DNA from: a virus
Virus record (IMG/VR): IMGVR_UViG_3300021376_000359
Span: 1 to 23,638 of that record
Strand: one strand, 5' to 3'
DNA: 23,638 nucleotides
A program made the translations under genes and the position numbers. Under the pieces are notes generated by a model. That model saw only the letters and a program-made list of their open reading frames with translations. It was not told the DNA's origin and did not search any database. Positions within the stretch are counted from its first letter, which is position 1, and every line of letters starts with the position of its first letter. Below are positions 2,102-23,638 of the stretch, piece after piece.

Positions 2102-2481
2102 TGGTTGCACCTAAGAACCCAATGAATAAAAAGGGCCGTGCTGCTGCAGGCAAAAAAGTAACAGCCGAAAAGACTGCTAAACTTGCAGCCGAACGTGCCG
2201 CAACCAAGAAGGCTGTTGTAGAAGCAGCCCAACTAGCCCTTCCCCTTCCTGGCCCAGCAAAACTTAGAGCAGCGGGCAGGGCGATCAAGGCTGTAGCCAA
2301 GGGAAAAAAGGTTCGAAAGCCAACACCGCCCGGGGTAGCCAAACATTATGCAGACCAAGCGCGGGCAATATTAGCAGAGCCAAATCCAGCAAAAAGAAAA
2401 AGAATGTCTAGAAATATAAAACCGTTTGTTCCTACTATTCCTAAATTAAACAAGACAAGAAAGAAAAAGAAGGGTAACTAA
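2101..2481 (+). CDS. Small Lys/Ala-rich basic protein, 126 aa
   Basis: I do not recognise a family. The protein is strongly basic, with Ala/Lys-rich predicted helices over residues 1-50 and a lysine-rich tail ending in KTRKKKKGN. It has a short hydrophobic Pro-containing stretch (QLALPLPGPAKL, about 44-55) but no convincing membrane segment. Its start overlaps the terL stop by one base, so it is probably translated by coupling. It is the first of four basic proteins between terminase and portal, which suggests a packaging or head role such as DNA neutralisation or condensation; that is inference. The reading frame is long and in the expected operon position, so it is probably a real gene. Confidence 0.75.
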   Translation: MVAPKNPMNKKGRAAAGKKVTAEKTAKLAAERAATKKAVVEAAQLALPLPGPAKLRAAGRAIKAVAKGKKVRKPTPPGVAKHYADQARAILAEPNPAKRKRMSRNIKPFVPTIPKLNKTRKKKKGN

Positions 2482-2482
2482 T

Positions 2483-2572
2483 ATGCCAAAAGTAAACGGA
2501 AAGAAATATCCATACACTAAAGCAGGAATAAAGGCAGCCAAAAAAGCAGCAAAGAAAAAGAAGGGTAAGTAA
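2483..2572 (+). CDS. Tiny basic protein, 29 aa, paralogue of the 84-aa protein at 2995
   Basis: ATG at 2483 follows the previous stop by one base and is preceded by an AAGGG Shine-Dalgarno at typical spacing; TAA ends at 2572. The product begins MPKVNGKKYPYTKAG and ends in alternating Ala/Lys. The first 25 residues match the start of the protein at 2995 (MPEVNGKKFPYTAAG) nearly residue for residue, which is strong evidence that this very short frame is translated. I recall similar short proteins with a 'GKK-(F/Y)-PYT' start from aquatic phages, from memory only. The function is unknown. A nucleic-acid-binding or head-internal peptide is possible. Confidence 0.75.
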   Translation: MPKVNGKKYPYTKAGIKAAKKAAKKKKGK

Positions 2573-2573
2573 A

Positions 2574-2993
2574 ATGCCACAACCAAAAAAGGGCGTAGCT
2601 GATTTCATTGCAAAGAAAGTAGCAAAGGGAGCCAGTAAGCGTTTAGAAAAGTCAGCAACTAAAGCTATGAATAAATCAGCAAAAAAAGAAGCCGGCAAAA
2701 CTCTTAAGAAAGCTGGCAAAGCTGGCAGTCCACTAACTTCAAAAGTTACTGTTGGACCCAAGACTCGCAAGAAAATGGCTGAAGGAAAATTTGGTTCCAA
2801 AGTAAAACAAGGCCCAGCATCCAAACAGAAAAGCAGCTCAACTGGAAACGTAAAGGTTAAGAATCAAACTGAACGAGATCCATTTGCCTTTTTTAATAAT
2901 CCTGAGAAACGAAAAGCAGCCCAAAAAGCTGCTGAAGCTCGTCGCAAAAAAACTCGCGCTAGCGGTCCAGACGAATTTTATGCGGTGAAATAA
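2574..2993 (+). CDS. Small Lys-rich basic protein, 139 aa
   Basis: This is an unrecognised, highly basic protein. Residues 1-50 form a repetitive Lys/Ala/Ser region (AKKVAKGASKRLEKSATKA), the middle (about 55-100) is Lys/Ser/Gly-rich and probably disordered, and the C-terminal third has a helical Lys/Ala/Arg stretch (PEKRKAAQKAAEARRKK) before an acidic-aromatic end (PDEFYAVK). The start is one base after the previous stop, with an AAGGG ribosome site upstream. The resemblance in composition to histone-tail or protamine-like proteins is noted, but no homology is claimed. The likely setting is DNA packaging or capsid interior, by position between terL and portal. Confidence 0.75.
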   Translation: MPQPKKGVADFIAKKVAKGASKRLEKSATKAMNKSAKKEAGKTLKKAGKAGSPLTSKVTVGPKTRKKMAEGKFGSKVKQGPASKQKSSSTGNVKVKNQTERDPFAFFNNPEKRKAAQKAAEARRKKTRASGPDEFYAVK

Positions 2994-2994
2994 T

Positions 2995-3249
2995 ATGCCA
3001 GAAGTAAACGGAAAAAAATTTCCATACACTGCCGCTGGCAAGAAAGCAGCCAAGAAGGCAGCTAAAAAAGAATCTGGCAAACCAGCTCCAATGCCAAAGA
3101 AGCCAACGCTTAATGATTATTTAAAACGTAACATGAGGCCACCAACTAAGGGCAAGAAAGCCCCACCAGATTATGATGTGATTACTCCTGACATGGGCTA
3201 CACTAAACCCACCAAGAAGAATCTTCCAAAGAAGATTAAAAAGAAGTAA
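2995..3249 (+). CDS. Small basic protein, 84 aa, longer paralogue of the 29-aa protein
   Basis: The N-terminus (MPEVNGKKFPYTAAGKKAAK) duplicates that of the 29-aa gene at 2483. A Pro/Lys-rich extension (about 26-84) then carries MPKKPTLNDYLKRNMRPP and ends KNLPKKIKKK. The start is one base after the previous stop, with GGTGA (2984-2988) as ribosome site. The pair suggests duplication followed by extension of one copy, or truncation of the other. The function is unknown. The shared PYT-containing head may be a small docking or DNA-contact element. Confidence 0.8.
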   Translation: MPEVNGKKFPYTAAGKKAAKKAAKKESGKPAPMPKKPTLNDYLKRNMRPPTKGKKAPPDYDVITPDMGYTKPTKKNLPKKIKKK

Positions 3250-5169: not shown

Positions 5170-5565
5170 ATGACAGCAGAACCAATGAATCCAGCAGCCG
5201 GAGTATCTGGCCCAGGTCGCTATGCTAAGCGTACCGACACGTTGCCTTCTGCGTATTATGGTGAAGGTACAGAGACACAAGAGATTAGCGGTGGAGCAGC
5301 AAAAGCAAAAACTCGTGGCGTTGCCGACAATGTAGGTGGTCGACCAAAGAATCCACCACAAGTAACTGGACTCTTTGCCCCAACAGAAAGACCCGATGAG
5401 CCAGTGACTACTGGTTCTCAATACGGTCCAGGACCAGGACCAGAAATCCTTGGAATTAATCGAGGACAAGAGTCACTATCACAAATTTTAGCACAGATGT
5501 TGCCGTATGACACCAATGGTGAGATAGCCTTACTATACGATCAAGCAGTATCTAGAGGATTTTAA
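5170..5565 (+). CDS. Hypothetical protein between portal and giant virion protein, 131 aa
   Basis: An open frame extends upstream to a TTG at 5119, but that segment encodes the hairpin at 5123-5153. I therefore place the start at ATG 5170, which has AGAGGA (5161-5166) directly before it. The first half is Pro/Gly/Ala-rich and probably disordered (MTAEPMNPAAGVSGPGRYAK). The C-terminal part (about 95-131) looks structured and helical, with LSQILAQMLPYDTNGEIALL. The family is not recognised. Coupling to the giant gene by TAATG suggests co-translation and a shared role in the virion interior or portal. Confidence 0.75.
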   Translation: MTAEPMNPAAGVSGPGRYAKRTDTLPSAYYGEGTETQEISGGAAKAKTRGVADNVGGRPKNPPQVTGLFAPTERPDEPVTTGSQYGPGPGPEILGINRGQESLSQILAQMLPYDTNGEIALLYDQAVSRGF

Positions 5566-8500
5566 TGGCACAGAACCTTGATAAAGCTAATATTTATCAA
5601 GCTGCCAGACGAGCTAATCTTAACCCAGCGCAAACGCAGCAGATAAATTCATTAAGCGAAATGTATTCAACACATTCTCGTTTAACTGGTATGCCTGCAG
5701 CTGTAGCGCAACAGGAATACAGCCAACTATCACCTGAGCAACAAACATCAATGGCTGCATTCTTTGGAGAGGGAAAGAAAGATCCAGCAAAGCCGGAGCG
5801 TTCTCTTATTGAAAACGCTGCGTATATCATTAGCCGTCCTATTGTAGAACCAATCAAAGCTGTATTCAATGCAGCCAACTGGTTGAGTGACCAAACAACC
5901 AGACTATATCGTACTGGTGCTATATCAATTGCAGAGAATAAAAATCTTGCTGATGCTTGGAAGCGGTCCGGTGCAAGAGGTGAGCAGGTATTTAATCCTG
6001 ACCGAATCGACAAAGCAATTAAATTATATGGTATGGATAGAGTGGCAGTTGCACAAAAAATTGCCTCCGGTATTCCACTTGACCAAATTATTGCTGAGGC
6101 TACAAACGAGAATCAAAAGCGTATTGCAGCAGATGGTGCACAGAATAAAGATGATTTGCTTACCGAAGCAATCGCTAAAGTAAATGCAGCCAAGTATTCC
6201 CCGGGTCGACAGATTGCTAACGCATTTTTGCCAGAAGACCTTGAGGGAGAGGGTCCTATTTATACCTGGTTATCAGGTACTGGCGATGCTGCATTTCGTA
6301 TTGGATTAGATCCTACCCTTCTTTTAGGTAAAGCAGCTAAGGTATACCGAGGCGCGCAATATGCTCTGTCAAAAACTGCAGGTAGTGCAGAAAATGTAAC
6401 ACGAGCATTTGATACCAATACAGTTCGTGGTCGTAACATTACGCGATTTTGGGAAGAGTACACTAGACTTACTGATGAGTTAGTACAGGCAAGAAAAGCA
6501 AACGAACCAATGCGAATTGGTGAGATAACCGGGCAACTTCGTCGCCTCAATCCTGCCTTTATGAACAATAATGTTACTGAATCTTTAATTAAATATGCAG
6601 ATGATAACTATAACGGCGTAATAAGCCTAACAACTGCAAAGAATTTTTTAACAGATGCCCAGAATATTGCACCACTTATGTATGGACAACCAGGATACTG
6701 GGTAAAATACATGCCACGTCTTAGCGAGTTTCGTAAGAAACGCCTAGATATGTACACTAGCGGGTCTAGAGTATTTGATCTTAATAAGGATAGCGCAGAT
6801 TTTATGCGTAACGTTGCATTTGATGAGGCAGATCTTAATGGTTTAACTCCTGGTGAAGCTCTCACAAGAAGTCTTGTTGGAGATGGAACAGAGTCAGCTA
6901 AAGAAGCAGGACTCCGCACCGGCGAGCGCTTGAAAGATAAAGATAGAGCAAAGGCAATCTTTGAAAGCAGATGGTCATTAGGGGCAATTAGCCGTCGATT
7001 TGATAGATTGTCTGCTAAACTTGCCCGCGTTCCTATCCAACGCGATTTACAAAATCTTGAAAGCGACAAGTCTATCCGTGCGATAGGACAACTTGCTCGA
7101 CCAATCTATGGTCGTTTCGGTGCTCGCATTATTGAAGACACATTCCGTGTTGCAGACCTGGGACAGCGTCGTTTAATTGCACAAGGATTAGCAGCTACAG
7201 TGCTGCGTGTTCGTGGTGCAGATGCTACTCCTGGTGGCAAAAAACTCATCGAAACTATTGGGAACCTGGGACGTGAAGGTATATATTCTAACCCAGTGTT
7301 CGACCCGGTAACTGGTCTGTACAAAATTCCATCACAGAACGCTGCTGGTGTTGACAGTGCGCTTTATCCGTATCAACTAGCCGACGGTATGAAGATGCCG
7401 ACGCTTGATGAGATAGATAAGAACATTGGACGAGAAGGATTCCTTGGTAAAATATGGGGTCTTCAGTACAAGAAAGTATCGGATGACATCATTGATGGAT
7501 GGACAACCGCCACCATTCTTGGTCCACGATTTCCTGTTCGTAACGCAATTGAAGACTTTATTGTAGGCTTTGCTAGCAGCGTATCGGCCCGAGGTTTTAT
7601 ACGAGGGCGTCGTGAAGCGACAAAAATTAGAACCGCTTCCCAAGAGCTAGAACTTGGAATGATTAACAATCTTGTGCGTAGTGGAAAATCTAAAGAGATT
7701 GCATCCGAGTTTAAAGCAGTAGACGATGGCACATATGTATTGGCCAACGGTACTATAGCAACAACTACGACAGAAAAAGAATTAGCAAAACGACAGATAC
7801 TTGCTAAAGGTTTGTTGGATAACAAGTTCGACGACGCAACAAAAGGAAACTTTGGCAGTGATTACGATCGTTTTCTTTATGAGTTTGCAATGTATGGCAA
7901 TCCTGAGAATTCACTTAATGAGGTTGCCGAGGGTGCCTATAACTTTGCGTTTGGTCAAAATGCTATAAGTCAAGTAAGCAGGCAAACCAGAAAAGGTGGC
8001 CGAGTTGTAGACTATACCTTTGATGGTGAGGCCTATCGTCGACAATACAAGTCCACTTTTATTCCTCAAGCCATCGACTCTGAGACTGCAGTTGCATGGG
8101 GATTCCAAATTAAAGCTAAGGCTACAGACCCATTGGCTTCTCTTGGTATTGTACTATTGAAGACTTATGGGAATAACCAGGTTGCTTTTATTAATCAACT
8201 ATCTAAGATGATAGATGATTTACCTCAATTCCAAAAAATGAAAAAACAAATGGAGAGGTACCAAGACCTAACGTATACCTCAACAGACCATGCTGGTGCA
8301 ATCTATAATGACCTGCGGGTTCTTTTTGGAAAACGCAATGGAGATATTAATTACGACCTATTGGATAAAATTGTTAAACCAGGCAAATCTGGACGCTTAG
8401 AAATAGATGTTAATGGTATATCAAAGATATCTGATTTGCCACAGGCATTAGATGATTTGCCACCGGCATTAACTTTGCCAAAGTTTGTTCCAGTATCTCA

Positions 8501-10355
8501 ATCGGATAACTATATTTCTGATATGGTTCGTTGGGGTTGGGATAAAGCGGCAGCAGCTAACGCCAGGTTTTCACGAGATGGACTTGTGATAGATGCTTCC
8601 TTCCATATTCGTAGAGACTTGGAACCATTCCGTAAGCAACTAGAAGATTCCATGATAAAAGGTGGAATGCCCGCAAACTACGCTAAAGATGCGGCAACTC
8701 GACGTGTAGTGGAACTGTCTGAGAATCTTGCTGTTGAGCGTGTGTTATCGTTTGTCGATAACCCTGAAGTGCGTTCGTATCTAGCATGGAACACACGTAA
8801 CCTTGCTCGGTTCTATCGCGCCACAGAAGATGCTTATCGACGCTTGTACCGCGTTACTCGTTATAGCCCAGAAGGATTACGTAAAGTAGCCTTGACGTAT
8901 GAAGGAGTAACACATGCGGGATTCGTACAACGTGACGATCAGGGCGAACCATACTTTATCTATCCTGCAGTTGCTCCAGTATATAATGCGGTAAACAAAG
9001 CACTTAGTGTATTTGGATTGGGAGATAAGTTTGTATCTCCAATGCCGTTACAGTTTGGTGCATCTATTAAAATGCTTACGCCTTCGGCAGATCCAAACTC
9101 GTGGATTCCTACATTCAGCGGACCATTAGCAGCGGTTCCAATTAAAATTATTTATAAGTTAGCAGGAGCAGTCGAAGAGTCCGACATTCCTTTTGTTTCT
9201 AGAGCGGGTAAAGAAGTAGCATCAACGGAAAAGTATATCCTTGGTAAGTACTCTGAAAATACTGATCTTGTTAACGCTTTCTTGCCAGGACATATTAACA
9301 AAGCTTTAAACTTAATGGATAGGGACGAGAGAGATTCTCAATACGCATCAGCATTCCGTAAGGCGGTAACCTATCTAGAAGCAGCAGGAATGACACCTTC
9401 TATTGGTGCCACACCTGGTGAAGTACAGCAATATCAAGATAGATTAAAGGCCACCATCCACAGCGTTCTTGGCGTACGGTTTGCTTTAGGATTTTTTGTT
9501 CCTGCCAGCCCGGGTATCCAGCTTAAAAGTGATATGGCTGGTTGGGTTCGTGACAATCAACGTACTAACTTTAAACAAGTGTGGTTAGAACTTATCAATA
9601 GATATGCTGATAAGCCAGACCCGGTTGGGCGTGCTATGGCAGAATGGGTGCGTCTATTCCCAGACCAGGTACCGTTTACTGTCAGTGAGTCTGACCCACG
9701 AGTTATGGGTAGATTTAAGACTAGCGAAGAGGCATCCGCCTGGGTACAAAACAACCGTTCCCTTATTAAGAAATACCCAGAGGGATCTAGTTATTTAATT
9801 CCACAGACTGGTGAGTTTACCTTTGATGCCTATAAAACATTAAAGGCAGAAGGGTTCCGACAAAGCAAGCTTGTCGGTGATTTTATGCAGGAAGTATTTG
9901 TTTCTCGATCTCGTCAATACTATTTTGAACAACGAGATGTTTATGAAAGCTTGTTGGCTCGTGCCACAAGTGACGAGCAAAAGAAACAACTTAGAGAAAA
10001 ATGGGGTTTATGGTCCACGGAATACCGAAACGCTAGACCGTTGCTTCAATTAGATCTTGCTGAGTCAGCATCAAATACTGTAAAGCGTAAGCAATCCTAT
10101 GAGGACTTAAAACGTATGCTATCAGAAACTGACGTCAACACTCCAGCAGCAAATGTTTTACGCAAGATGGTAAAAATATATGATGAATACACATATAATA
10201 CCAACGTTGTTTACAACTCTCGCAGTGAAGCAGATATAAATATTAGAAAAAGTTTAAAAGAAGCAGTCTTTATAGAACTGAAAGAGATTGCCTCTACAGA
10301 TGCAAATGCAAGTTCGGCGTTCGACATTCTATTCGCTAATTTCTTGAGGGATTAA
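5565..10355 (+). CDS. Giant virion protein, 1596 aa (putative internal/ejection protein)
   Basis: This is by far the largest gene, about a fifth of the window, lying between portal and scaffold/capsid genes. It is mostly helical in character, with many Arg/Lys/Asp-rich amphipathic stretches and several hydrophobic stretches (around residues 642-678, 1184-1203 and 1301-1320) that could contact membranes. A conserved-looking segment rich in Trp/Tyr/Arg lies at about 1064-1098 (SYLAWNTRNLARFYRATEDA). I see no lysozyme, transglycosylase, peptidase or polymerase motif. Podoviruses commonly encode one very large protein that is stored in the head and ejected with the DNA, and position and size fit that role. 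A tape-measure protein is less likely because the gene precedes the capsid gene and lacks a clear repetitive coiled-coil rod. The gene is certain; the function is inferred. Confidence 0.7.
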   Translation: MAQNLDKANIYQAARRANLNPAQTQQINSLSEMYSTHSRLTGMPAAVAQQEYSQLSPEQQTSMAAFFGEGKKDPAKPERSLIENAAYIISRPIVEPIKAVFNAANWLSDQTTRLYRTGAISIAENKNLADAWKRSGARGEQVFNPDRIDKAIKLYGMDRVAVAQKIASGIPLDQIIAEATNENQKRIAADGAQNKDDLLTEAIAKVNAAKYSPGRQIANAFLPEDLEGEGPIYTWLSGTGDAAFRIGLDPTLLLGKAAKVYRGAQYALSKTAGSAENVTRAFDTNTVRGRNITRFWEEYTRLTDELVQARKANEPMRIGEITGQLRRLNPAFMNNNVTESLIKYADDNYNGVISLTTAKNFLTDAQNIAPLMYGQPGYWVKYMPRLSEFRKKRLDMYTSGSRVFDLNKDSADFMRNVAFDEADLNGLTPGEALTRSLVGDGTESAKEAGLRTGERLKDKDRAKAIFESRWSLGAISRRFDRLSAKLARVPIQRDLQNLESDKSIRAIGQLARPIYGRFGARIIEDTFRVADLGQRRLIAQGLAATVLRVRGADATPGGKKLIETIGNLGREGIYSNPVFDPVTGLYKIPSQNAAGVDSALYPYQLADGMKMPTLDEIDKNIGREGFLGKIWGLQYKKVSDDIIDGWTTATILGPRFPVRNAIEDFIVGFASSVSARGFIRGRREATKIRTASQELELGMINNLVRSGKSKEIASEFKAVDDGTYVLANGTIATTTTEKELAKRQILAKGLLDNKFDDATKGNFGSDYDRFLYEFAMYGNPENSLNEVAEGAYNFAFGQNAISQVSRQTRKGGRVVDYTFDGEAYRRQYKSTFIPQAIDSETAVAWGFQIKAKATDPLASLGIVLLKTYGNNQVAFINQLSKMIDDLPQFQKMKKQMERYQDLTYTSTDHAGAIYNDLRVLFGKRNGDINYDLLDKIVKPGKSGRLEIDVNGISKISDLPQALDDLPPALTLPKFVPVSQSDNYISDMVRWGWDKAAAANARFSRDGLVIDASFHIRRDLEPFRKQLEDSMIKGGMPANYAKDAATRRVVELSENLAVERVLSFVDNPEVRSYLAWNTRNLARFYRATEDAYRRLYRVTRYSPEGLRKVALTYEGVTHAGFVQRDDQGEPYFIYPAVAPVYNAVNKALSVFGLGDKFVSPMPLQFGASIKMLTPSADPNSWIPTFSGPLAAVPIKIIYKLAGAVEESDIPFVSRAGKEVASTEKYILGKYSENTDLVNAFLPGHINKALNLMDRDERDSQYASAFRKAVTYLEAAGMTPSIGATPGEVQQYQDRLKATIHSVLGVRFALGFFVPASPGIQLKSDMAGWVRDNQRTNFKQVWLELINRYADKPDPVGRAMAEWVRLFPDQVPFTVSESDPRVMGRFKTSEEASAWVQNNRSLIKKYPEGSSYLIPQTGEFTFDAYKTLKAEGFRQSKLVGDFMQEVFVSRSRQYYFEQRDVYESLLARATSDEQKKQLREKWGLWSTEYRNARPLLQLDLAESASNTVKRKQSYEDLKRMLSETDVNTPAANVLRKMVKIYDEYTYNTNVVYNSRSEADINIRKSLKEAVFIELKEIASTDANASSAFDILFANFLRD

Positions 10356-10356
10356 T

Positions 10357-11061
10357 ATGGCTGACTTTATAGAAATTGTTAATCAAACAGTATCTCCAGC
10401 ATTAATTACTTCTGCATCCAAGGTCACACTAAACTATGATCGACCTTTTGCAACCCAACAGATTGGTGTTACAAAGACAACAGAAGACGAACTAAGGGCA
10501 TCGTATAGATTGCTCAGCCCTGAACTAAAGAAATCAATTTCTGCAAAACTAAAAGCCTCAGGGTATAAGGTGTCAATTACTGACAAGTATGACCTTGCGG
10601 TAAGAGATGCCTGGGTAGATGCAAACAAGCGTTTTAGTGAAGAAGTCACCAATACCCTCAGGGCAGACCCCGATTTCTTTACTGACCAACCATTTACTAT
10701 AGATGACTACTTGTCGCTTACATCACAAGGGATTCCCGGAACTGGTGGGAAAACAAAGAGTTACACCACAGTATATAGTGAAGAAAAAGCGTCGGCACTT
10801 GTAGATACCATATTCAAAGATCTTACTGGAATGCCGGCCTCAGAAGAAGACAAGATTAAATACTCTGCTATATTGAGAGAGAAGCAAGAGGAAAATCCGT
10901 CAACTTACAATGCCAAGACAGGTTATGCTGTTGAAGGAATGGGTGCAGCCGAATCTCAAAAGATGCTCATAGATGAGATTGCTGGAACCGACGAGGCCAA
11001 ACGAATGAGAGCAATGAGCGGTTACCAGATTCTACTATCACAGTTGGGAGTTAAAGCATAA
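10357..11061 (+). CDS. Hypothetical virion-associated protein, 234 aa
   Basis: The start is ATG one base after the giant gene's stop, with GAGGG (10346-10350) six bases upstream. The protein is mixed alpha/beta and charged, without signal peptide or membrane segment, and I recognise no family. Features include a helical N-terminal half (ELRASYRLLSPELKKSISAK, about 47-66), a Gly/Ser/Thr-rich loop near residue 125 and a helical end. It overlaps the next gene by TAATG. Its place within the block between portal and capsid suggests an internal head or neck protein made together with the giant protein. Confidence 0.65.
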   Translation: MADFIEIVNQTVSPALITSASKVTLNYDRPFATQQIGVTKTTEDELRASYRLLSPELKKSISAKLKASGYKVSITDKYDLAVRDAWVDANKRFSEEVTNTLRADPDFFTDQPFTIDDYLSLTSQGIPGTGGKTKSYTTVYSEEKASALVDTIFKDLTGMPASEEDKIKYSAILREKQEENPSTYNAKTGYAVEGMGAAESQKMLIDEIAGTDEAKRMRAMSGYQILLSQLGVKA

Positions 11062-12806
11062 TGGCTGAACGCCCCAAAGGTACTTATATAGCTAACGTGT
11101 TCAATCCCGGCATAGACAAAAATATGCCATTTGGATTTGTAGATGTTGTGTATACTAATGATGGCGAAGCCATTGGTTTTATGAAGGGCGGAAACTTCTA
11201 CAATTTTGGAGAAGTTGCCGACGACGCCAAACCAAAGCGCCAAAGGGCTAGCACCGTAGGTGTTCCTACAATCAACGATCAAAGATCTGCTCAATCAGAA
11301 CGCGATACACTTAGTTCTAAATTAAAGAATATGGATAACAAAGGTGTATCTAAAGACAGTCCTGAGTATACTAAAACGTACAATGATTATCTTTCTGCAC
11401 AAAAAAGACTTGATAATATTAATTCAAAAATTGATGCTTACGTAAAGAAAAACAAAGAATATACTGATGACTGGAAAGCCACCAGAGAAAAACAAAAAGA
11501 AGGCGCGTATAAAGAAGTCCAAGATATTGTAACTCAAAAAGACGAAGTGGCAGCAGCAAAGAAAGCTGCTCAAACTGAAAAGAAAAGAAAGCAATTAGAG
11601 GCCGAGAAGGCTGATGCTGAGCGTCGTGGAGATACAGAAGGGGCGCGCAAGGCTCAAACAGATATTAACAATCTTCCTAAAACCACTACTCCAACAAAAC
11701 CCACAACTCCCACTCCGGGCGCACCCGTGTCTCCCAGAGCACAAGAGTCTGGGGTTAATAAACCAGCAGCAAAAACTACCGAGACCAAAACAACAACTAC
11801 TCCTAGCGCAACTCCCACACCAACTCCCACACCAACTCCCACCAAAAAGGGCGCTAAAGATAAGTTGCCCAAAAAGACGGAGTCTGACCGGGAACTAACA
11901 GCAGAACAGATTCTTAATAACTATCGATTTGTTGATGTTATTATTGAACAGGATCCTACACTCAAAAAAGCTTATTTAGATTTTGTCAAAAACAAAATTA
12001 CTAAAGAGCGCTTTACTAATGTTGTTGTAACATCTGACTACGTAGCAAAGAATAGCCAGACCATTCGTCAACGTATTTATAACAAAAGTATATATAACGA
12101 ACTGGGTCCGGAAGATCAAAAGTCTGGTAATAGCCAATACTCACAAGATGTTTTCAATATTAAGTCTACATTGAAAGATGAAGCACTTAATGCCGGTGCG
12201 GTTATTGACGATACTCAATTGGACATGATTGCTGATAGACTTTATATGGCCGGTCAAGATGACAATAAAGGGTCGCGCTTAGCAGCCATACGACCTTTCA
12301 TTAAAGTTGGAGTATCTCCAGTTACAGGACAAGCAACTATTGGCGGAACTGGTGGCGCTAACTATCGAGAGCTTTTGCAGACTGCTTACCAAAATGGTAT
12401 ATCCGTATCTGAACTACCAAAGGTTCTTGGATACCAAGGGATGGACCAAGTTCTCCAGGCTATTAGTGCTGGCGAACCAGTTACTACGTTCCAACAAGGA
12501 ATGCGCAACCATGTTTCTGCCGGTCAATCTGACTTTGTTAAAAATCAATTGGCTCAAGGGGTGGATCTTAGAACTGTGGCACAGCCTTATATTACCGCAG
12601 CGGCTGAAGTATTAGAGTTACAACCGGATGCTATTAAAGTCAACGATTCTACTATTCAAGCTGGGTTACAAAATGGTGGTATGAACATTTTTGATTACAA
12701 AAAGTTATTGAAGAAAGACAATCGTTGGCAGTATACAAAAAATGCTGAGCAGGATGTATCTAGTGCAACTATGAGAATCTTGCGCGACTTTGGATTTGAG
12801 GCATAA
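11061..12806 (+). CDS. Putative virion protein with coiled coil and Pro-Thr linker, 581 aa
   Basis: Three parts can be read. An N-terminal domain (about 1-70) contains aromatic beta-like segments. A long charged coiled-coil region (about 75-205) is rich in Glu/Lys/Gln (for example AAKKAAQTEKKRKQLEAEKA). A Pro/Thr linker (about 208-268, with a TPTPTPTPT core) leads to a C-terminal globular domain (about 275-581) with mixed helices and Gly-rich turns. No enzyme motif is seen. Flexible Pro-Thr linkers joining two folded parts are common in extended structural or cell-surface proteins. Together with the next gene, which also has such a linker, it may form part of the internal core or ejection machinery; this is inferred from context. 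Confidence 0.68.
   Translation: MAERPKGTYIANVFNPGIDKNMPFGFVDVVYTNDGEAIGFMKGGNFYNFGEVADDAKPKRQRASTVGVPTINDQRSAQSERDTLSSKLKNMDNKGVSKDSPEYTKTYNDYLSAQKRLDNINSKIDAYVKKNKEYTDDWKATREKQKEGAYKEVQDIVTQKDEVAAAKKAAQTEKKRKQLEAEKADAERRGDTEGARKAQTDINNLPKTTTPTKPTTPTPGAPVSPRAQESGVNKPAAKTTETKTTTTPSATPTPTPTPTPTKKGAKDKLPKKTESDRELTAEQILNNYRFVDVIIEQDPTLKKAYLDFVKNKITKERFTNVVVTSDYVAKNSQTIRQRIYNKSIYNELGPEDQKSGNSQYSQDVFNIKSTLKDEALNAGAVIDDTQLDMIADRLYMAGQDDNKGSRLAAIRPFIKVGVSPVTGQATIGGTGGANYRELLQTAYQNGISVSELPKVLGYQGMDQVLQAISAGEPVTTFQQGMRNHVSAGQSDFVKNQLAQGVDLRTVAQPYITAAAEVLELQPDAIKVNDSTIQAGLQNGGMNIFDYKKLLKKDNRWQYTKNAEQDVSSATMRILRDFGFEA
11811..11842 (+). repeat. 12-bp tandem repeat encoding Thr-Pro
   Basis: The unit ACTCCCACACCA occurs twice perfectly (11811-11822, 11823-11834) and is followed by an 8-base partial third copy. 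It encodes the Thr-Pro core of the linker in the 581-aa protein. The unit differs in codons from the Pro-Thr repeat in the following gene, so the two did not arise by recent copying from one another. Confidence 0.85.
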
Positions 12807-12808
12807 AG

Positions 12809-14125
12809 ATGACCATAGATCCCAATCAACTATTGTTTGGACAAAAGCCTAAAAAGAAAAAACTTTCAAAGCCGGCGCCACAACAAGTATCTAGTCCGTA
12901 TTACAGAACGCAAACTGGATCTGCAGGACTTTCTGGTTTGGATGCCGCAATAGCATTTGGAAACATGAGTCCAATTGAAAGAGCTAAGGCTCAGTTAGAA
13001 GCTCTTGAGGTTAGCGGTACAAAGAATTTGGCAGATGCCGCAGAAACAACAACAAGAGCTGCAAAAGGTATTGATAAAATTCAAGAACGCCAAATGGGAA
13101 TGGAAGGTAAAGCACTTCCAATTACGGCAGGATTTGACGTAAATCTGCCATCAAATTTTTTTTCAAACGTACTACCAACCCCAACACCAACGCCGACACC
13201 AACCCCAACACCAACGCCGACACCAACTGGAGGGGCAGCACCTGGTGCAGCTAATACTGATTCTGTCGCTGCAGGTGCAGGAAATAAGGTATCTGCATTT
13301 GATAAATTAAAACAACGTCTTAATGCCAGAAACCTTGGATCATTATATGATGCGGTTGTTGGATTGGTTCAAGCAGATTTACCAGAGGATGAGTTTACTC
13401 TTCAATTACGAGCTACTCCTGCATACCGACAAAGATTCCAAGCCAATCAAACAAGAATTGATAATGGATTAACTCCTGTTGGTGAGGCTGCATACCTTGA
13501 CATGGAAGATAGATTTCAAGAGGTTATGCGGAGACGTGGGTTGCCAGAGTCTTACTGGGCGCGTACTGGATTTGGAGAACAGAAAAATTTTGATGCGTTA
13601 ATTGCTAACGATGTATCTGCTGATGAACTTGATTCTCGAATTAATGCAGCACAGATGGTAATAAATGCTAACCCCCAAGTAATGAAATCCCTGAAAAGTT
13701 ACTATCCCGAAATCAAGGATGGGGACGTTCTTGGATATGTATTGAATCCTAAAGCTGGTTTAGTTGACATTGAGCGAAAGGTTCGTGGAGCACAAATTGG
13801 TGGTGCTGCATTAACAGCAGGTCTTGATGAACCAAGCGCTGCGCGCCTTAACGAACTTATTTCAGCCGGAACTTCGGAAACAGAAGCACGGCAAGGATTT
13901 GAAAACATTGCTAACATTTTACCAGAAACCAAAAAACTATCTCGAATATATGATAGTGGAGGATACACACAAGCAGAAGCAGAGGCTGAAGCCTTTGGTC
14001 TTGCGGGTGGTATAGAGTCTCAAAGAAGACGACGTAAACTGGCGTCTAGAGAAAGAGCATCCTTTGAGGGTCAAGCAGGCATAAGTAGAACGGCCCTCGA
14101 AAAAGGAAGCTCGGGAGCGTTTTAA
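12809..14125 (+). CDS. Putative virion protein with Pro-Thr repeat linker, 438 aa
   Basis: The N-terminal part (about 1-120) is helical and charged. A pure Pro-Thr linker follows (residues 123 to about 140), then a Gly/Ala-rich stretch and a helical C-terminal domain (about 160-438). That domain has Ala/Glu-rich helices near the end (YTQAEAEAEAFGLAGGIE) and an Arg-rich segment (RRRRK). The C-terminus ...TALEKGSSGAF looks like a natural flexible end. The start is ATG 12809, with GAGG (12798-12801) upstream. I do not recognise the family. It lies directly before the scaffold/capsid pair. An alternative reading frame beginning near its end is open (see 14133-14240). Confidence 0.68.
   Translation: MTIDPNQLLFGQKPKKKKLSKPAPQQVSSPYYRTQTGSAGLSGLDAAIAFGNMSPIERAKAQLEALEVSGTKNLADAAETTTRAAKGIDKIQERQMGMEGKALPITAGFDVNLPSNFFSNVLPTPTPTPTPTPTPTPTPTGGAAPGAANTDSVAAGAGNKVSAFDKLKQRLNARNLGSLYDAVVGLVQADLPEDEFTLQLRATPAYRQRFQANQTRIDNGLTPVGEAAYLDMEDRFQEVMRRRGLPESYWARTGFGEQKNFDALIANDVSADELDSRINAAQMVINANPQVMKSLKSYYPEIKDGDVLGYVLNPKAGLVDIERKVRGAQIGGAALTAGLDEPSAARLNELISAGTSETEARQGFENIANILPETKKLSRIYDSGGYTQAEAEAEAFGLAGGIESQRRRRKLASRERASFEGQAGISRTALEKGSSGAF
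13175..13228 (+). repeat. 24-bp perfect tandem repeat encoding (Pro-Thr)4
   Basis: Two identical 24-base units (13175-13198 and 13199-13222) are followed by six bases of a third copy. Each encodes four Pro-Thr pairs. Because the unit is a multiple of three, gain or loss of copies would change only the linker length, keeping the reading frame. Confidence 0.9.
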
Positions 14126-14737: not shown

Positions 14738-15910
14738 ATGGCAATACCTGGTGGTTCATTAACCTCTTCCAGTACCATCAGTGCGCTCGTAACCACAGCA
14801 TACGATCAGTATGTAAGAATGGCGCTTCGCTCCATTCCTGTTATGCGTGCGCTCGCTGATGTAAAGCCCGTACAACAAGCAATGCCTGGTTCTTCGGTAG
14901 TCTTCTCAATCTACTCAGATTTGGCACAGGCCACTTCAACATTGAGCGAGTCTACGGATGTGAACAGCATCGCTCTCGGTAACCCATCACAGGTTACTGT
15001 AACTCTCAGTGAGTATGGCTCTGCAGTCACTACGACTAAGAAGCTTAACCTCACTTCGTTTAATGATGTTGATGCAGCACTCGCTGACATCATCGCATAC
15101 AACGCAGCAGACAGCATCGACAATGTTGTCGGACAGGTCCTCTCTGCGGGAACCAACGTCATCTACGCAACCGGTGGAGCTACCGACCCATCGTCCTCAG
15201 CAACTGTTGAGCCAACCGATGTTATCACCGTAGCTGATATCCGCAACGCTGTTGTATCACTTCGTACCAACAAGGCATTGCCTCGTATGGGCGAACTCTA
15301 CGCTGCATACCTCCACCCACGTCAATCAGCGGATCTCCGCTCTGAGACTGGTACTGGTGGATTCCAAGACCTCACCAAGTTCGTCGAGCGCACCCCGTTC
15401 GTCACTGGTGCAGTTGGAGCAATTGAAGGCGCATACATCGTTGAGACCGCACGTGTTCTTAACGGTATGCCTCTGGCATCCGGAATCACTACAACTGTTT
15501 CCGTAACCAACAAGGCTCTTACCTCAAACGTTGCAACCCTCACCACATCCGTAGCACACGGTCTTGGTGTCGGACAGGTCATTACCGTATCCGGTGTTGA
15601 CGCTACCTTCAACGGTACCTTTACCCTTACTGCGGTTACTTCCGATACGCTTTCTTATGCAAAGACTGCGTCTAACGTTGCGTCTGCTGCAGCAACCGGT
15701 ACTGTTACCTTCACCAACAACTACCGCGCAATTATTGCCGGTCGTGAAGCACTTGCTGAGGCTCTTGCTCAGGACATCTCTACCGTTATCGGTCCAGAAA
15801 TCGACGCACTTCGTCGTTTCCGCACCATCGGTTGGTATATGTTCGGTGGCTGGAACCGTCTCCGCGAATCAGCACTCTATCGTATTGAGTCTGCCGCTTC
15901 AAACGGTTAA
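14738..15910 (+). CDS. Major capsid protein (N4-gp56-like) with inserted Ig-like/beta domain
   Basis: This is the shell protein of the head, 390 aa. The pattern of an N-terminal YDQYVRMALRSIPVMRALAD, a Thr/Ser-rich arm, an EYGSAVTTTKKL segment, DAALADIIAYNAADSIDNVV, and the closing FGGWNRLRESALYRIESA resembles the N4-gp56 family of HK97-fold capsid proteins, from memory. Residues about 251-326 look foreign to that fold: a beta-rich, Val/Thr/Gly segment (VTNKALTSNVATLTTSVAHG through YAKTASNVASAAATGTVTF) of the type often seen in tail fibres and as capsid surface decorations. The flanks (ARVLNGMPLASG and NNYRAIIAGREALAEAL) rejoin a normal capsid C-terminal part. Codons are noticeably richer in C-ending forms than in neighbouring genes, fitting high expression. 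The ribosome site is AAAGG at 14724-14728. A hairpin follows the stop. Confidence 0.9.
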   Translation: MAIPGGSLTSSSTISALVTTAYDQYVRMALRSIPVMRALADVKPVQQAMPGSSVVFSIYSDLAQATSTLSESTDVNSIALGNPSQVTVTLSEYGSAVTTTKKLNLTSFNDVDAALADIIAYNAADSIDNVVGQVLSAGTNVIYATGGATDPSSSATVEPTDVITVADIRNAVVSLRTNKALPRMGELYAAYLHPRQSADLRSETGTGGFQDLTKFVERTPFVTGAVGAIEGAYIVETARVLNGMPLASGITTTVSVTNKALTSNVATLTTSVAHGLGVGQVITVSGVDATFNGTFTLTAVTSDTLSYAKTASNVASAAATGTVTFTNNYRAIIAGREALAEALAQDISTVIGPEIDALRRFRTIGWYMFGGWNRLRESALYRIESAASNG

Positions 15911-18907: not shown

Positions 18908-20899
18908 ATGACAGTACGTAAATATTCATCCCGTTCTCAACAAACAACTCTAGCATCCAGCCTTTCTGCGGGTGCAACAACCATGTTAGTTGGTTCTGGT
19001 GCAGCTTTAATGGGTGGAAAAACACCGTTATCATCTGAAACATATACAGTTGTTATTGACCCAGATACTGCACTTGAAGAAATTGTAGATGTAAGTAATT
19101 ACTCAACTGGTAATACCCTTGCTATTACTCGCGCTAGAGATGGCTCCTCTGATGTGGCTCACTCTGCCGGTGCGGTAGTACGACATATGGTTATTGGCCG
19201 AGATTTACAAGAAGCTAACAACCATTCAGTTGCACCTACTGGTGTTCATGGAATTACAGGAGCTGTTGTTGGTACAACCGACGCTCAGACCTTGAGTGGT
19301 AAAACACTAACCACTCCAACTATTGCCTCTTTCACAAATGCAACCCACGACCATAGCAATGCTGCTGGTGGCGGCACTCTTGGTTCTGGTGTCATTACCA
19401 GCACAATGATCGCTAATGACACAATTGTTAATGCTGATATTAACTCATCTGCCCAGATTGCTTACAGTAAATTAAATCTTACCAACTCCGTTGTTAATGC
19501 TGACATCAACGCTTCGGCTGCCATTGCTCTCAGCAAGTTAGCAACTGACCCACTAGCCCGCGCCAACCATACAGGTACTCAGTTGGCTAGCACTATCTCT
19601 GACTTTGACACACAGGTAAGAACAAACAGACTAGACCAAATGGCAGCACCCATTGCCAACGTAGCCCTTAATAGCCAGAAGATTACCGGTTTGGCTACGC
19701 CAACAGTCAGCACCGATGCAGCAACTAAGGATTATGTAGACACGCAGGTAACCAACCTGGTGGATGCTGCTCCTGGAGCACTTGATACTCTCAACGAGTT
19801 GGCTGCTGCCCTTGGCGATGATGCTAATTTCTCAACTACAATAACCAACTCTTTGGCTACTAAGTTAAGCCTATCTGGTGGCACCATGACCGGTGCCATC
19901 GCAATGGGAACTAGCAAGATTACTGGACTAGGAACCCCAACTGTTTCAACTGATGCTGCCACCAAAGCATATGTAGATGGCGTTGCAATTGCTCCTAGCA
20001 ACCTTACAGGTCCTATCACATCGGTGGGTTCTGCTACTGCTATTGCTGCTCAGACTGGTACAGGTACCACCTTTGTGATGCAAGCCAGCCCAACGCTTAC
20101 TACTCCAACATTGGGTGTGGCTACTGCTACCAGCATCAATGGCACATCTATCCCATCTAGCAAGACCCTAGTTGCTACCGACTCTACTCAGTATGTAGTA
20201 CCTAGCCAAACAGGAAATGCCGGTAAGTTCTTAACTACTGACGGCACTGCATCTTCCTGGGATTCTGCAGTTACTCCAACAGGCAGCCAGACCCTAACCA
20301 ATAAAACTTTAACCTCACCGGTCTTGGGCGGAACAACTACAACTGCTTCAGGCAATTTAGTAGTAGAGCCTGCTACATTTATTCTTGAAGTAAAAGGTGG
20401 CGGTGCAACCGTTGGGCAAATTCAACTTAACTGTCCTGTAAACAGTCATGGGCAGAAGATTGCTTCTCAGCCCCACGCTCAGGAAGCATCAAACACCTTG
20501 ACTTTGCCAGGTGGCAATACAATTGGTAATAATGATGCCATCCTTGTTTCTGATACCGGAACACAAACGCTTACCAATAAGACCATTAATGGTTCTAGCA
20601 ATACTATTACAAATGTTTCCTTAACATCTGGCGTAACTGGAACACTACCAATTGCTAATGGTGGTACTGGTCAGACAACAGCGTCTAATGCAATCAACGC
20701 TCTTGTTCCTAGCCAGGCTTCTAATAGTGGTAAGTATCTTACAACCGATGGTTCTGCAGTTTCTTGGGGAACCGTAGATGCACTACCAAACCAGGCTGGA
20801 AACTCAGGCAAGTATCTCACTACGAACGGAACTTCTGCTTCGTGGGCTTCAATCACAACCGACCCAACACCAACCGTATTTCTCTTGATGGGAGCATAA
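18908..20899 (+). CDS. Tail fibre protein, 663 aa
   Basis: This is a long repetitive Ser/Thr/Gly/Ala-rich protein, typical of trimeric phage fibres. The N-terminal domain (about 1-105) has a beta-rich attachment-like fold and a TRARDGSS-HSAG motif. Repeats follow: paired VNADIN-S segments (about 180-215), two copies of TPTVSTDAATK-YVD (near 263 and 345), four TLT-KT-type segments, and three copies of Q-xx-N-x-GK-(F/Y)-LTTDG/NG (near 433, 602 and 628). The end (TPTVFLLMGA) is short and hydrophobic. I see no chaperone or lyase domain. It probably forms a fibre rod attached to the neck, with receptor-binding parts supplied by the small genes that follow. The ribosome site AGGTG overlaps the previous stop. 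Confidence 0.85.
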   Translation: MTVRKYSSRSQQTTLASSLSAGATTMLVGSGAALMGGKTPLSSETYTVVIDPDTALEEIVDVSNYSTGNTLAITRARDGSSDVAHSAGAVVRHMVIGRDLQEANNHSVAPTGVHGITGAVVGTTDAQTLSGKTLTTPTIASFTNATHDHSNAAGGGTLGSGVITSTMIANDTIVNADINSSAQIAYSKLNLTNSVVNADINASAAIALSKLATDPLARANHTGTQLASTISDFDTQVRTNRLDQMAAPIANVALNSQKITGLATPTVSTDAATKDYVDTQVTNLVDAAPGALDTLNELAAALGDDANFSTTITNSLATKLSLSGGTMTGAIAMGTSKITGLGTPTVSTDAATKAYVDGVAIAPSNLTGPITSVGSATAIAAQTGTGTTFVMQASPTLTTPTLGVATATSINGTSIPSSKTLVATDSTQYVVPSQTGNAGKFLTTDGTASSWDSAVTPTGSQTLTNKTLTSPVLGGTTTTASGNLVVEPATFILEVKGGGATVGQIQLNCPVNSHGQKIASQPHAQEASNTLTLPGGNTIGNNDAILVSDTGTQTLTNKTINGSSNTITNVSLTSGVTGTLPIANGGTGQTTASNAINALVPSQASNSGKYLTTDGSAVSWGTVDALPNQAGNSGKYLTTNGTSASWASITTDPTPTVFLLMGA

Positions 20900-20902
20900 T
20901 AA

Positions 20903-21238
20903 ATGCCAGTAGCATATAAAATCCTAGGTCGCAAGGCTGCAGCAGCCACGACAGAGGAAACGCTTTATACAGTACCCGCGGCAACGCAAACAATTGTTTC
21001 TACAATTGTTGTAGCAAACATTTCTTCTTCTGCCCGTACATACCGTATTGCAGTAAAGCAAGGAACTGGAACTTCAATAGCAAACGAACACTACCTTGCC
21101 TACGATGTAGCAATTGCAGCAAATGACTCAACGGCGCTTACGCTAGGTATTACGCTAGATGCAAACAACACCATCAGCGTGTATGCCTCGGCAGCATCTT
21201 CGTTGACCTTCACCGCATTCGGCTCGGAACTATCGTAA
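20903..21238 (+). CDS. Small beta-rich tail-associated protein, 111 aa
   Basis: The product begins MPVAYKILGRKAAAATTEET. It is dominated by short Val/Ile/Thr/Ala beta segments (TIVSTIVVANISSSARTYRI) and looks like a single beta-sandwich domain without transmembrane helix or cysteines. GGGAG lies eight bases before the ATG. Position between the fibre and the tip-gene array suggests a fibre-associated or tip-linking protein. Similar short domains are common after fibre genes, but I assign no family. Confidence 0.68.
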   Translation: MPVAYKILGRKAAAATTEETLYTVPAATQTIVSTIVVANISSSARTYRIAVKQGTGTSIANEHYLAYDVAIAANDSTALTLGITLDANNTISVYASAASSLTFTAFGSELS

Positions 21239-21239
21239 T

Positions 21240-21854
21240 ATGTCAACCAGTAGGCTATCTACTCTCTCATTAAAGAATGGACTGCCTAAGTCCAATAACA
21301 TTTGGGATGGCATTACCGGATTCTTTGAGTCTATTGCTACTATTACTGTAACTTCAAATCAGTCCAATGTTGATTTCTTAAACATACCATCAACATATAC
21401 TCATTTGCAGATACGGGGAATATCCCGCAGTAATTACTCAACGGGAAACTATGTCTCTACTGGTATTAGATTTAACTCTGATGCTAGTAGTCTTTATGCA
21501 GCACACTATCTTATAGGTAACGGAGCAAGTGCCAGTGTGTATGGGTGGCAAAATGAAAATAGAATTTATGGCTCTTTTTCTCCATCAGCAAATGCTATAT
21601 CAAGTAATTTTTCACCATTTATTATAGATATATTAGATTATGCAAATACAAATAAATTCAAAACAACACGAACACTCAATGGCTATGACAATAACAATAC
21701 TGGTTCTACGGATTTTAACAAAGGAATAGTTGGAATATCATCTGGTTTATGGCGTAGCACTAACGCTATTACAAGCGTAAGATTGTTACCACCAGATTCT
21801 TACTACTGGGTTCCATATACTACTTTTGCACTCTACGGGATTAGGAGTTTCTAG
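21240..21854 (+). CDS. Tail-tip / receptor-binding-type protein, copy A, 204 aa
   Basis: This is the first of five related genes. The N-terminus (SRLSTLSLKNGLPKSNNIWD, then FFESIATITVTS) and the phrase IPSTYTHLQIRG match the gene at 22875 closely. The middle holds a RFNSDAS--Y--HYL motif and IIDILDYANTNKFKTTRT. The end is FALYGIRSF. I recall this pattern (STYTHLQIR, FNSDT-SNY, DILDY-NTNKYKT, ALYGI) as frequent in phage tail-tip proteins, from memory. It is probably a beta-sandwich that binds host surface sugars. The ribosome site is weak (GGAA). Its last codons provide the AGGAG used by the next gene. Confidence 0.75.
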   Translation: MSTSRLSTLSLKNGLPKSNNIWDGITGFFESIATITVTSNQSNVDFLNIPSTYTHLQIRGISRSNYSTGNYVSTGIRFNSDASSLYAAHYLIGNGASASVYGWQNENRIYGSFSPSANAISSNFSPFIIDILDYANTNKFKTTRTLNGYDNNNTGSTDFNKGIVGISSGLWRSTNAITSVRLLPPDSYYWVPYTTFALYGIRSF

Positions 21855-22357
21855 TGCCAGCCACTTATGATAAGATTGCAAGCAATACTTTAAGTACCGC
21901 TCAATCAACAGTTACTTTTTATAGCATAAGTGGGAGTTATACTGATTTAGTGTGTATTGTAAATGGCAGAACTACTGCTGATGGAATATATGTAAACTTA
22001 AGATTGAATAATGATACTAGTAATACGCTATCTGCTACACGTTTAACAGGTAGCGGTTCTGCTGCTGCATCAAGCCGTGTTTTTAATAGCAATCTTTTAA
22101 CCCTTACACCTAATGCGGCGTGGGATAGTGTAAGTCCTTGTTCAACAATTATTAACATACAAAACTACAGCAACACAACAACTCATAAAAGTATATTAGT
22201 AAGAAGCAATGTTGAACGTGGAGCATACGGAGAGGTGTCTGCAATAGTAGGAAGGTGGGCATCTACTGCAGCAGTAGATAGGGTAGATTTTATTACTGGA
22301 AGTTCTACATTTTTAGCCGGTACAACTTTTACTATTTACGGAATTAAGGCGGCATAA
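21854..22357 (+). CDS. Tail-tip-type protein, copy B, 167 aa
   Basis: The start is GTG overlapping the previous TAG by one base; AGGAG (21843-21847), inside the previous gene's C-terminal codons, lies six bases upstream. The N-terminus MPATYDKIASNTLS recurs at 23450 (MPATYELIQTTTTT). It shares SYTDL, an LRLNNDTSN segment, NYSNTTTHKS and the ending TIYGIKAA with the array. It is shorter than copy A because the A-specific linker (KSNN-WDG) is missing. The likely role is a fibre tip subunit; no direct evidence is visible. Confidence 0.72.
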   Translation: MPATYDKIASNTLSTAQSTVTFYSISGSYTDLVCIVNGRTTADGIYVNLRLNNDTSNTLSATRLTGSGSAAASSRVFNSNLLTLTPNAAWDSVSPCSTIINIQNYSNTTTHKSILVRSNVERGAYGEVSAIVGRWASTAAVDRVDFITGSSTFLAGTTFTIYGIKAA

Positions 22358-22866
22358 TGGCAGCAATACATCCTATATCCACCATTACTGTTGGTTCAGG
22401 CATGAGTGCGGCTCTTGATTTTAATCCTATTCCATCTACCTATACTGATTTACTTATTGTTCTTTCAACAAGAGATGGTAGCACTACTGCTGGCTTTAAT
22501 AGCCCAACCATTAAATTTAACAATTCCTCAGCAAATTATAATTTTAAGTATTTAGGTTTTGCTGCCGGTGGAGAAGTTTCTTACAATTATTCAATTTTTG
22601 GAATTAATATTTTAGGGTATCAACCCGGTAGTGGTTCACTTGCCAATTGTTTTATGAATACTTCTATATATATTCCAAATTATACTAGCAGTAATTATAA
22701 ATCTATTTTTATTGATAATGTTTATTCATTAAATGCTACGGCAACTAATGTTTACTGGGGATGTTCTGCTGGATTATGGTCGCAAACGGCAGCAATAAAT
22801 CAATTTACAATTTCTGCTGGTTCTTTTGCTCAACACTCAACCGCAACGCTTTACGGAATCAAGTAG
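22357..22866 (+). CDS. Tail-tip-type protein, copy C, 169 aa
   Basis: The start overlaps the previous stop (TAATG), with AAGG (22346-22349) from the previous gene's last codons. The N-terminus MAAIHPISTITVGSGMSAAL is unlike A and B, but IPSTYTDLLIVLSTRDG, IKFNNSSANYN, IYIPNYTSSNYKSIF and the closing ATLYGIK follow the shared scheme. It is rich in Asn, Ser and Tyr, with AT-rich codons. It is probably an exposed beta-sandwich. It is the most diverged of the five visible copies. Confidence 0.72.
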   Translation: MAAIHPISTITVGSGMSAALDFNPIPSTYTDLLIVLSTRDGSTTAGFNSPTIKFNNSSANYNFKYLGFAAGGEVSYNYSIFGINILGYQPGSGSLANCFMNTSIYIPNYTSSNYKSIFIDNVYSLNATATNVYWGCSAGLWSQTAAINQFTISAGSFAQHSTATLYGIK

Positions 22867-22874
22867 GGAGAATC

Positions 22875-23450
22875 ATGGGAGTACGTAAACTTTCTACTGC
22901 ATCTATTAAAAGCAACAACAAGTCAACTAAGTTCTGGGATGGCAATGTTGGCACCTTTGAGTCTATTGCTACATTTTATTTAACATCACCAGCCGGTTCT
23001 GTAACATTTTCTAGTATACCAACCGCATATAAACATTTACAAATTAGAATTATTAGTGAAAATATTGGTGGTTCTAACTATAATTTTATGAGATTTAATT
23101 CAGATACTGCCAGTAATTATTATAATCACTTTACTTTTTCAGTTGGTTCTTCTACACCTTCAGGTTCTTATCTCAATTCTTCTTCTCTATATACTGGCCA
23201 AAGTTTTGCTGGTGATAATACATATTGGGGTGTTTCAATTACAGATATACTTGATTATAACGACACTAATAAATACAAAACAATTAAAACCGTTAGTGGC
23301 GAATCACAAAATGGAAGTGGACTTGTTTTGATAATTTCCGGTTATTGGTCCAACACCAACGCAATTACATCCATTGAGTTTAAGCCTCAATTGGGCGGAA
23401 ATTTTAGAACAAATTCAAGATTTGCTTTATACGGAATTAGGGGTGTTTAA
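22875..23450 (+). CDS. Tail-tip / receptor-binding-type protein, copy A', 191 aa
   Basis: An open frame extends upstream to 22761 inside copy C, but ATG 22875 is chosen: GGAG (22867-22870) lies four bases before it, and the product then aligns from its first residues with copy A (RKLSTASIKSNNKSTKFWDG, then FESIATFYLTS). Shared blocks include IPTAYKHLQIR, MRFNSDTASNYYNHF, ITDILDYNDTNKYKT, SGYWSNTNAITSIE and FALYGIRGV. Differences from copy A concentrate in the middle loops, as expected for binding surfaces. It is probably a receptor-binding tip protein. Confidence 0.77.
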   Translation: MGVRKLSTASIKSNNKSTKFWDGNVGTFESIATFYLTSPAGSVTFSSIPTAYKHLQIRIISENIGGSNYNFMRFNSDTASNYYNHFTFSVGSSTPSGSYLNSSSLYTGQSFAGDNTYWGVSITDILDYNDTNKYKTIKTVSGESQNGSGLVLIISGYWSNTNAITSIEFKPQLGGNFRTNSRFALYGIRGV

Positions 23451-23638
23451 TGCCAGCAACTTATGAATTAATACAAACAACAACTACAACAACAAGTTCT
23501 GCTGGAATTACTTTTGATAACATAAGTTCTAATTTTACTGATTTAAGAATAATAATAACTCCAATTTCTGTTGTTGCTAGCAATTATTTTTATTTAAGAT
23601 TTAATAATGACGCTTTTAGTAATTATTCTTTTAATGAA
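23450..23638 (+). CDS. Tail-tip-type protein, copy B' (partial, cut by window end)
   Basis: ATG 23450 overlaps the previous stop (TAATG), with AGGGGTG (23439-23445) four bases upstream inside the previous gene's C-terminal codons. The 63 visible residues begin MPATYELIQTTTTTTSSAGI and include NFTDLRIIITP and YLRFNNDAFSNYSF, matching copy B (21854). The gene continues beyond the window, and a second C copy may follow. Codons are very AT-rich. Confidence 0.72.
   Translation, partial: MPATYELIQTTTTTTSSAGITFDNISSNFTDLRIIITPISVVASNYFYLRFNNDAFSNYSFNE

Follow-up and report, generated by a model that had tools for sequence, protein, structure and literature searches.

Our findings indicate that freshwater phages carry a new and widespread three-gene adhesin module, a conclusion we consider well supported. 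Its genes, here called A, B and C, form an obligate triad with a fixed order. We lean towards the view that their products make up an obligate hetero-oligomeric adhesin docked through A, of which the phage studied here encodes two different copies. The analyzed stretch of DNA, referred to below as the window, is a complete virus record of 23,638 bases, apparently itself a fragment. The array lies at its right end, where the genes A, B, C, A' and B' follow one another on one strand:

18908..20899, + strand: tail-fibre-like gene; N-terminal ~140 aa and C-terminal 65 aa conserved (80% identity to E7)
20903..21238, + strand: gene for a 111-aa protein upstream of the array, with an E7 ortholog (50% identity); context, outside the family
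21240..21854, + strand: gene A; docking peptide (about residues 1-28), then a 12-strand beta-sandwich core
21240..21323, + strand: putative docking peptide of A, N-terminal; MSTSRLSTLSLKNGLPKSNNIWDGITGF
21854..22357, + strand: gene B; core domain only, GTG start, 1 nt overlap with the stop of A
22357..22866, + strand: gene C; core domain only, ATG start, 1 nt overlap with the stop of B
22875..23450, + strand: gene A'; opens the second triad, docking peptide of the WDG class as in A, plus core
22875..22952, + strand: putative docking peptide of A', N-terminal; MGVRKLSTASIKSNNKSTKFWDGNVG; 46% identity to the docking peptide of A
23450..23638, + strand: gene B'; first 63 codons, then the end of the record

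The array consists of one triad, A-B-C, and the beginning of a second, A'-B'. The record stops at the expected place of C', and its end sequence was found in no other contig of the viral collection searched. The start of A' was set at the ATG at 22875; a longer frame, from 22761, overlaps C.

All five genes encode paralogous all-beta domains of about 165 residues. The proteins align along their full length, with an extra N-terminus of about 25 residues in A and A', while B, C and B' start right at the core. Local alignment of all copies revealed homology in all ten pairs (z-scores 6.4 to 31), and for no pair did any of 500 shuffles reach the observed score. The motif scheme noticed in the original prediction is present, in the forms IPSTY/ISGSY, FNSD/FNND, (N/D)TNK(F/Y)K and YGI(R/K), and the homology extends well beyond these few residues. 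The suggested correspondence of A with A' and of B with B' was also confirmed. In the tree, A' falls inside an A clade with support 97/94; the tree also has a C clade with support 99/98 and a more weakly supported B group. For B', the B profile reaches 81.7 bits, versus 28.4 for the A and 24.3 for the C profile. In the survey of loci described below, the profiles assigned members clearly to A, B or C. The 111-aa protein encoded upstream is not a family member by pairwise alignment against shuffles. An assembly artefact was considered and rejected, since identity between the copies is just ~43% and 9 other loci also have tandem triads.

Pfam returned no match above cut-off for A, B, C, A' or B', and PHROG 35103 and 35501, which match the domain weakly, are both of unknown function. 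The AlphaFold2 model of the window A protein (125 sequences; pLDDT 88, pTM 0.82) is an all-beta domain of 12 strands whose N-terminus is floppy. Many predicted viral proteins have this fold according to Foldseek, with E-values down to 2.5e-20, and some of these are labelled as tail fibre, collagen-repeat, fibronectin or glycine-rich proteins. Against solved structures, the profile of A gave no match by sequence. Foldseek gave weak matches to L-type lectins (such as ERGIC-53 and Emp47) and TNF-like lectins, with probability up to 0.96; these proteins share the all-beta sandwich, and at TM-scores of about 0.3 or lower and 9-17% identity the likeness is no evidence of membership. We also modelled a natural in-frame A-B-C stretch from a related locus (L130), in which the two stop codons were translated as glutamine. 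The read-through model, built on a shallow alignment of 6 rows and of low overall confidence (pLDDT 64, pTM 0.51), has 12 strands in each third and supports, at the level of fold rather than packing, a fold common to A, B and C, which would follow one strand pattern rather than have unrelated folds.

The nearest relatives in the annotated collection are the isolated 'Ca. Planktophila' phages LanE43AprE7 and LanE43AprF5 (E7 and F5; OX376640 and OX376641), described in PMC10202952. Their records carry no annotation, and the portion of that article consulted contains no description of the A-B-C triad. The window is colinear with both phages over the terminase, portal-position, capsid-position, neck and tail-fibre genes, with 38-67% identity for most pairs. 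E7 carries an A-B-C triad at the same place, with each of its members the best match of its counterpart (A 39%, B 42%, C 41%). Unlike the window, E7 has one triad only, located after two glycine-rich adhesins with docking peptides, of which the first, the one tested, is a Gly_rich_2 (PF21722) protein. The same single triad is present in F5, split across the ends of the linear record. Synteny breaks at the tail-fibre locus, where the conserved genes for a 301-aa protein, the tail fibre and a 732-aa protein flank a variable cassette. In 80 viral contigs found via the 301-aa neighbour, the stretch from the tail-fibre and 111-aa genes to the ~732-aa tail gene is highly variable, and contains A-B-C triads, single family members, glycine-rich proteins and others. 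The array sits in this cassette directly behind the tail-fibre-like and 111-aa genes, in line with the tail-adhesin location initially assigned to it. A small gene lies no more than 250 nt behind 123 of 171 triads; in E7 it encodes 74 aa (INCETGE... AEEIAALSK; L003:26926-27150), it has no Pfam or PHROG match, and its product is possibly an assembly factor. The window record stops short of the position where this gene would be expected.

Other parts of the record also deserve mention. The probable major capsid protein (14738-15910) contains a ~76-aa domain (about residues 220-295; HGLGVGQVITVSGVDATFNGTFTLT...) that is 50% identical to a stretch of the E7 732-aa tail protein, and hence common to capsid and tail. 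A 1,596-aa open frame (5565-10355), unusually large for its region and sharing ~25% identity with an E7 protein of 1,764 aa, possibly encodes an internal or ejected virion protein. Three small, very lysine-rich proteins are encoded in a row between the terminase-like and the portal-position gene (2101-3249), and two adjoining proteins (11061-12806 and 12809-14125) have long Pro-Thr repeats (TPTPTPTP).

A single-protein search with A found no relatives in the viral collection; these were obtained with separate A-group and C-group alignments as queries. The resulting survey, with several hundred relatives listed per search, covered at least 388 loci and 231 distinct gene runs. Loci were retrieved through A or C, and the presence of the other two members was not a requirement of the search. 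Among the matches listed, members less than 100 nt apart occur in the order A>B 206 times, B>C 208 times and C>A 9 times in the 231 distinct runs, and no BA, CB, AC, BB or CC pair was found among them; three additional adjacent pairs in the survey involve weakly assigned members. Again among the matches listed, runs away from contig ends comprise 118 ABC, 6 ABCABC and 2 ABCABCABC, and AB or BC alone is confined to contig or locus ends. The commonest junction in the surveyed triads is a 1-nt stop/start overlap (AB 80, BC 136). One locus (L033) has a separated C-B pair, 539 nt apart, in which a B-like domain follows a different N-terminus later in the cassette. In an Acidimicrobiaceae MAG contig (L242), three consecutive family members are more divergent, and are perhaps an older form of the triad. 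The triad is present in fixed order in hundreds of freshwater phage contigs, and its complete arrays comprise one, two or three triads. The earlier idea of A-B-C as a unit, with a second unit begun at A', is borne out by this survey.

The N-terminal segment distinguishes A from its partners. The A N-terminus, of which MSTSRLSTLSLKNGLPKSNNIWDG is an example, is one of a group of short N-termini found likewise at the start of unrelated cassette adhesins, glycine-rich proteins among them. Among non-family cassette genes, 22/103 score at least 50 against A N-termini, with a top score of 86; shuffles go no higher than 42, and control genes located further downstream no higher than 35. Against the A N-termini of other loci, the same score is reached by 165/216 A, 0/221 B and 1/220 C proteins; B and C lack the peptide, and their N-termini score at background. 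Conserved N-terminal peptides have been proposed to attach secondary receptor-binding proteins (RBPs) in Klebsiella phages (PMC6872550), and by analogy the N-terminal segment of A may attach adhesins to the tail. The tail-fibre-like protein is one candidate docking platform, and the 732-aa protein is another. Docking peptides within one genome share their class in 26/34 pairs versus 10.3 expected, a count that relies on a coarse classification and includes several related genomes.

Since the docking peptide is found on the first protein only of each set, each set is probably one multi-part binding device. A different reading would have A, B and C as three independent homotrimeric adhesins placed side by side, with their order kept by cassette inheritance. 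Phage fibres are mostly homotrimers, and related single-domain family members occur outside triads, so the fold can work alone. Such independent adhesins are hard to reconcile with B and C lacking the docking peptide borne both by A and by unrelated cassette adhesins, and with a triad that is never broken or permuted among the matches listed despite the highly variable cassette around it. We therefore consider this reading unlikely. Because the three paralogs never separate among the matches listed and there is one docking peptide per three of them, an A:B:C complex would be the simplest account.

Extensions of the core are also distributed unequally. N-terminal extensions of at least 40 aa occur on 23/216 A, 1/221 B and 0/220 C proteins (Fisher 6e-11), and the long additions on A include fibronectin type III domains. 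C-terminal extensions show the opposite distribution, with A 0/222, B 9/224 and C 16/216 (B and C together 25/440; 4e-5). Nearly all of them are glycine-rich domains of ~280 aa, mostly Gly_rich_2 (PF21722), and in the complete triads examined B is extended only where C is extended too. This asymmetry is consistent with a single device that A anchors close to the tail while B and C supply the binding tips. It could also bring to mind a serial fibre, stacked end to end with A proximal and C distal, which further triads would lengthen. N-terminal additions on A and C-terminal additions mainly on C agree with such a stack, as does a single reading frame (L228:5986-7287) in which the C of a first triad is fused to the A of a second, joining the two. 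However, the ~280-aa glycine-rich tip on B comes together with a tip on C, and side-by-side display fits tips on both proteins better than a B in mid-stack; moreover, A' has a docking peptide of its own. A serial fibre thus appears improbable.

What is the origin of the second triad? The original prediction proposed that A-B-C had been duplicated as a block. If this had happened recently in the window phage, it would explain the repeated gene order and the similar N-termini of A and A', and tree testing neither supports nor rejects a sister placement of A and A' (p-AU 0.36; the trees are star-like). The cores speak against it. A and A' are 43% identical in the core, a match that exceeds only 17% of the matches of A to the A proteins of other phages and, from the side of A', only 26%; the B-B' match exceeds only 38% of the scores of B with other phages. 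Only the N-terminal ~26 residues of A and A' are unusually alike, scoring above the match of A to 98% of other A proteins. At the DNA level, the similarity of A to the rest of the record is confined to 69 bases, matching at 74%. The window is no exception in this respect: in 12 co-resident A pairs, a set in which same-genome pairs are not fully independent, docking peptides have a mean percentile of 0.79 and cores of 0.31 (paired test, p 0.007), so that the cores of co-resident triads are less alike, and their docking peptides more alike, than between genomes. A recent block duplication is therefore very improbable. The similarity of the N-termini had been seen correctly, and to judge from these comparisons it would be due to a docking peptide that A and A' have in common, not to recent copying.

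The same percentiles suggest that the triads of an array differ from one another and are mounted through docking peptides that are compatible. The second triad may be either an old duplication or an acquisition from other phages. Within tandem arrays, the match of A to its own B or C does not surpass that to the B or C of the adjoining triad (5-6 of 9 arrays), which lends no support to strict partner specificity. A distance correlation (Mantel r 0.39-0.45) was considered as a measure of triad coherence and dropped, because an internal control inside arrays failed to tell own from neighbouring partners. In two genomes with triple arrays (L111 and L169), the docking peptide of each A copy, first to third, resembles that of the A copy in the corresponding position of the other genome, a hint that such arrays are long-lived.

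Two known systems offer useful comparisons. In Dishui Lake virophage 2 (DSLV2), three consecutive tail proteins co-purify as a heterotrimer and bind cells (PMC12724248). The array resembles this tripartite tail in having three consecutive paralogs with position-specific clades and a fixed order. The DSLV2 proteins have a T4 gp37-like collar domain (PF07484) and belong to a virophage, whereas the array has no Pfam match and another predicted fold. As none of the five array proteins has a PF07484 match above cut-off, the likeness would be a functional analogy and not membership. A heterotrimer would be a form well suited to a phage adhesin. With DSLV2 as precedent (PMC12724248), a 1:1:1 A:B:C stoichiometry is plausible. 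The second comparison is with Klebsiella phages, which have several RBPs each, divergent proteins with a common short N-terminal attachment peptide (29 aa in KP32 viruses; PMC6872550). The short N-terminal peptide on otherwise unrelated adhesins (scores to 86, null maximum 42) is a shared feature, but in our case it resides on one of three obligate partners, and no depolymerase or T4gp10-like domain was identified in the array.

Taken together, these observations can be accommodated in the following model. A, B and C would be lectin-like beta-sandwich paralogs, translated from overlapping genes in a fixed order to give one tail-adhesin unit. The ~25-residue docking peptide of A would plug this unit into the phage tail, and B and C would reach the tail through assembly with A; an A:B:C heterotrimer would be the simplest such assembly. 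Binding would be performed by the cores, in some relatives together with the glycine-rich domains at the C-termini of B and/or C. Two different units of this kind, A-B-C and A'-B'-[C'], would be present in the window phage. Both would have a docking peptide of their own, and as these peptides are of one class, the two units could be mounted on the same tail. Of the functions first suggested for the array, the hetero-oligomeric tip is kept as a live option by the fixed-order triad and the docking peptide present only on A; a widening or switching of host range is plausible. We offer more tentatively a general form of the model, in which freshwater tailed phages have an obligate A:B:C pseudo-threefold spike docked via A, and some of them mount two or three different heterotrimers in parallel.

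The isolated relatives infect 'Ca. Planktophila', of the order 'Ca. Nanopelagicales', which is among the most abundant freshwater bacteria. Since the cultured phages E7 and F5 carry one triad each, the proposed complex is directly testable. If it exists, tailed phages would have, in a different fold, an equivalent of the sole tripartite heterotrimer found in our literature search, that of a virophage. Such an obligate adhesin of three subunits, its docking peptide separable, would reveal which genes set host contact in these phages, and the docking peptide would provide a sequence handle to find adhesins in uncultured freshwater phages.
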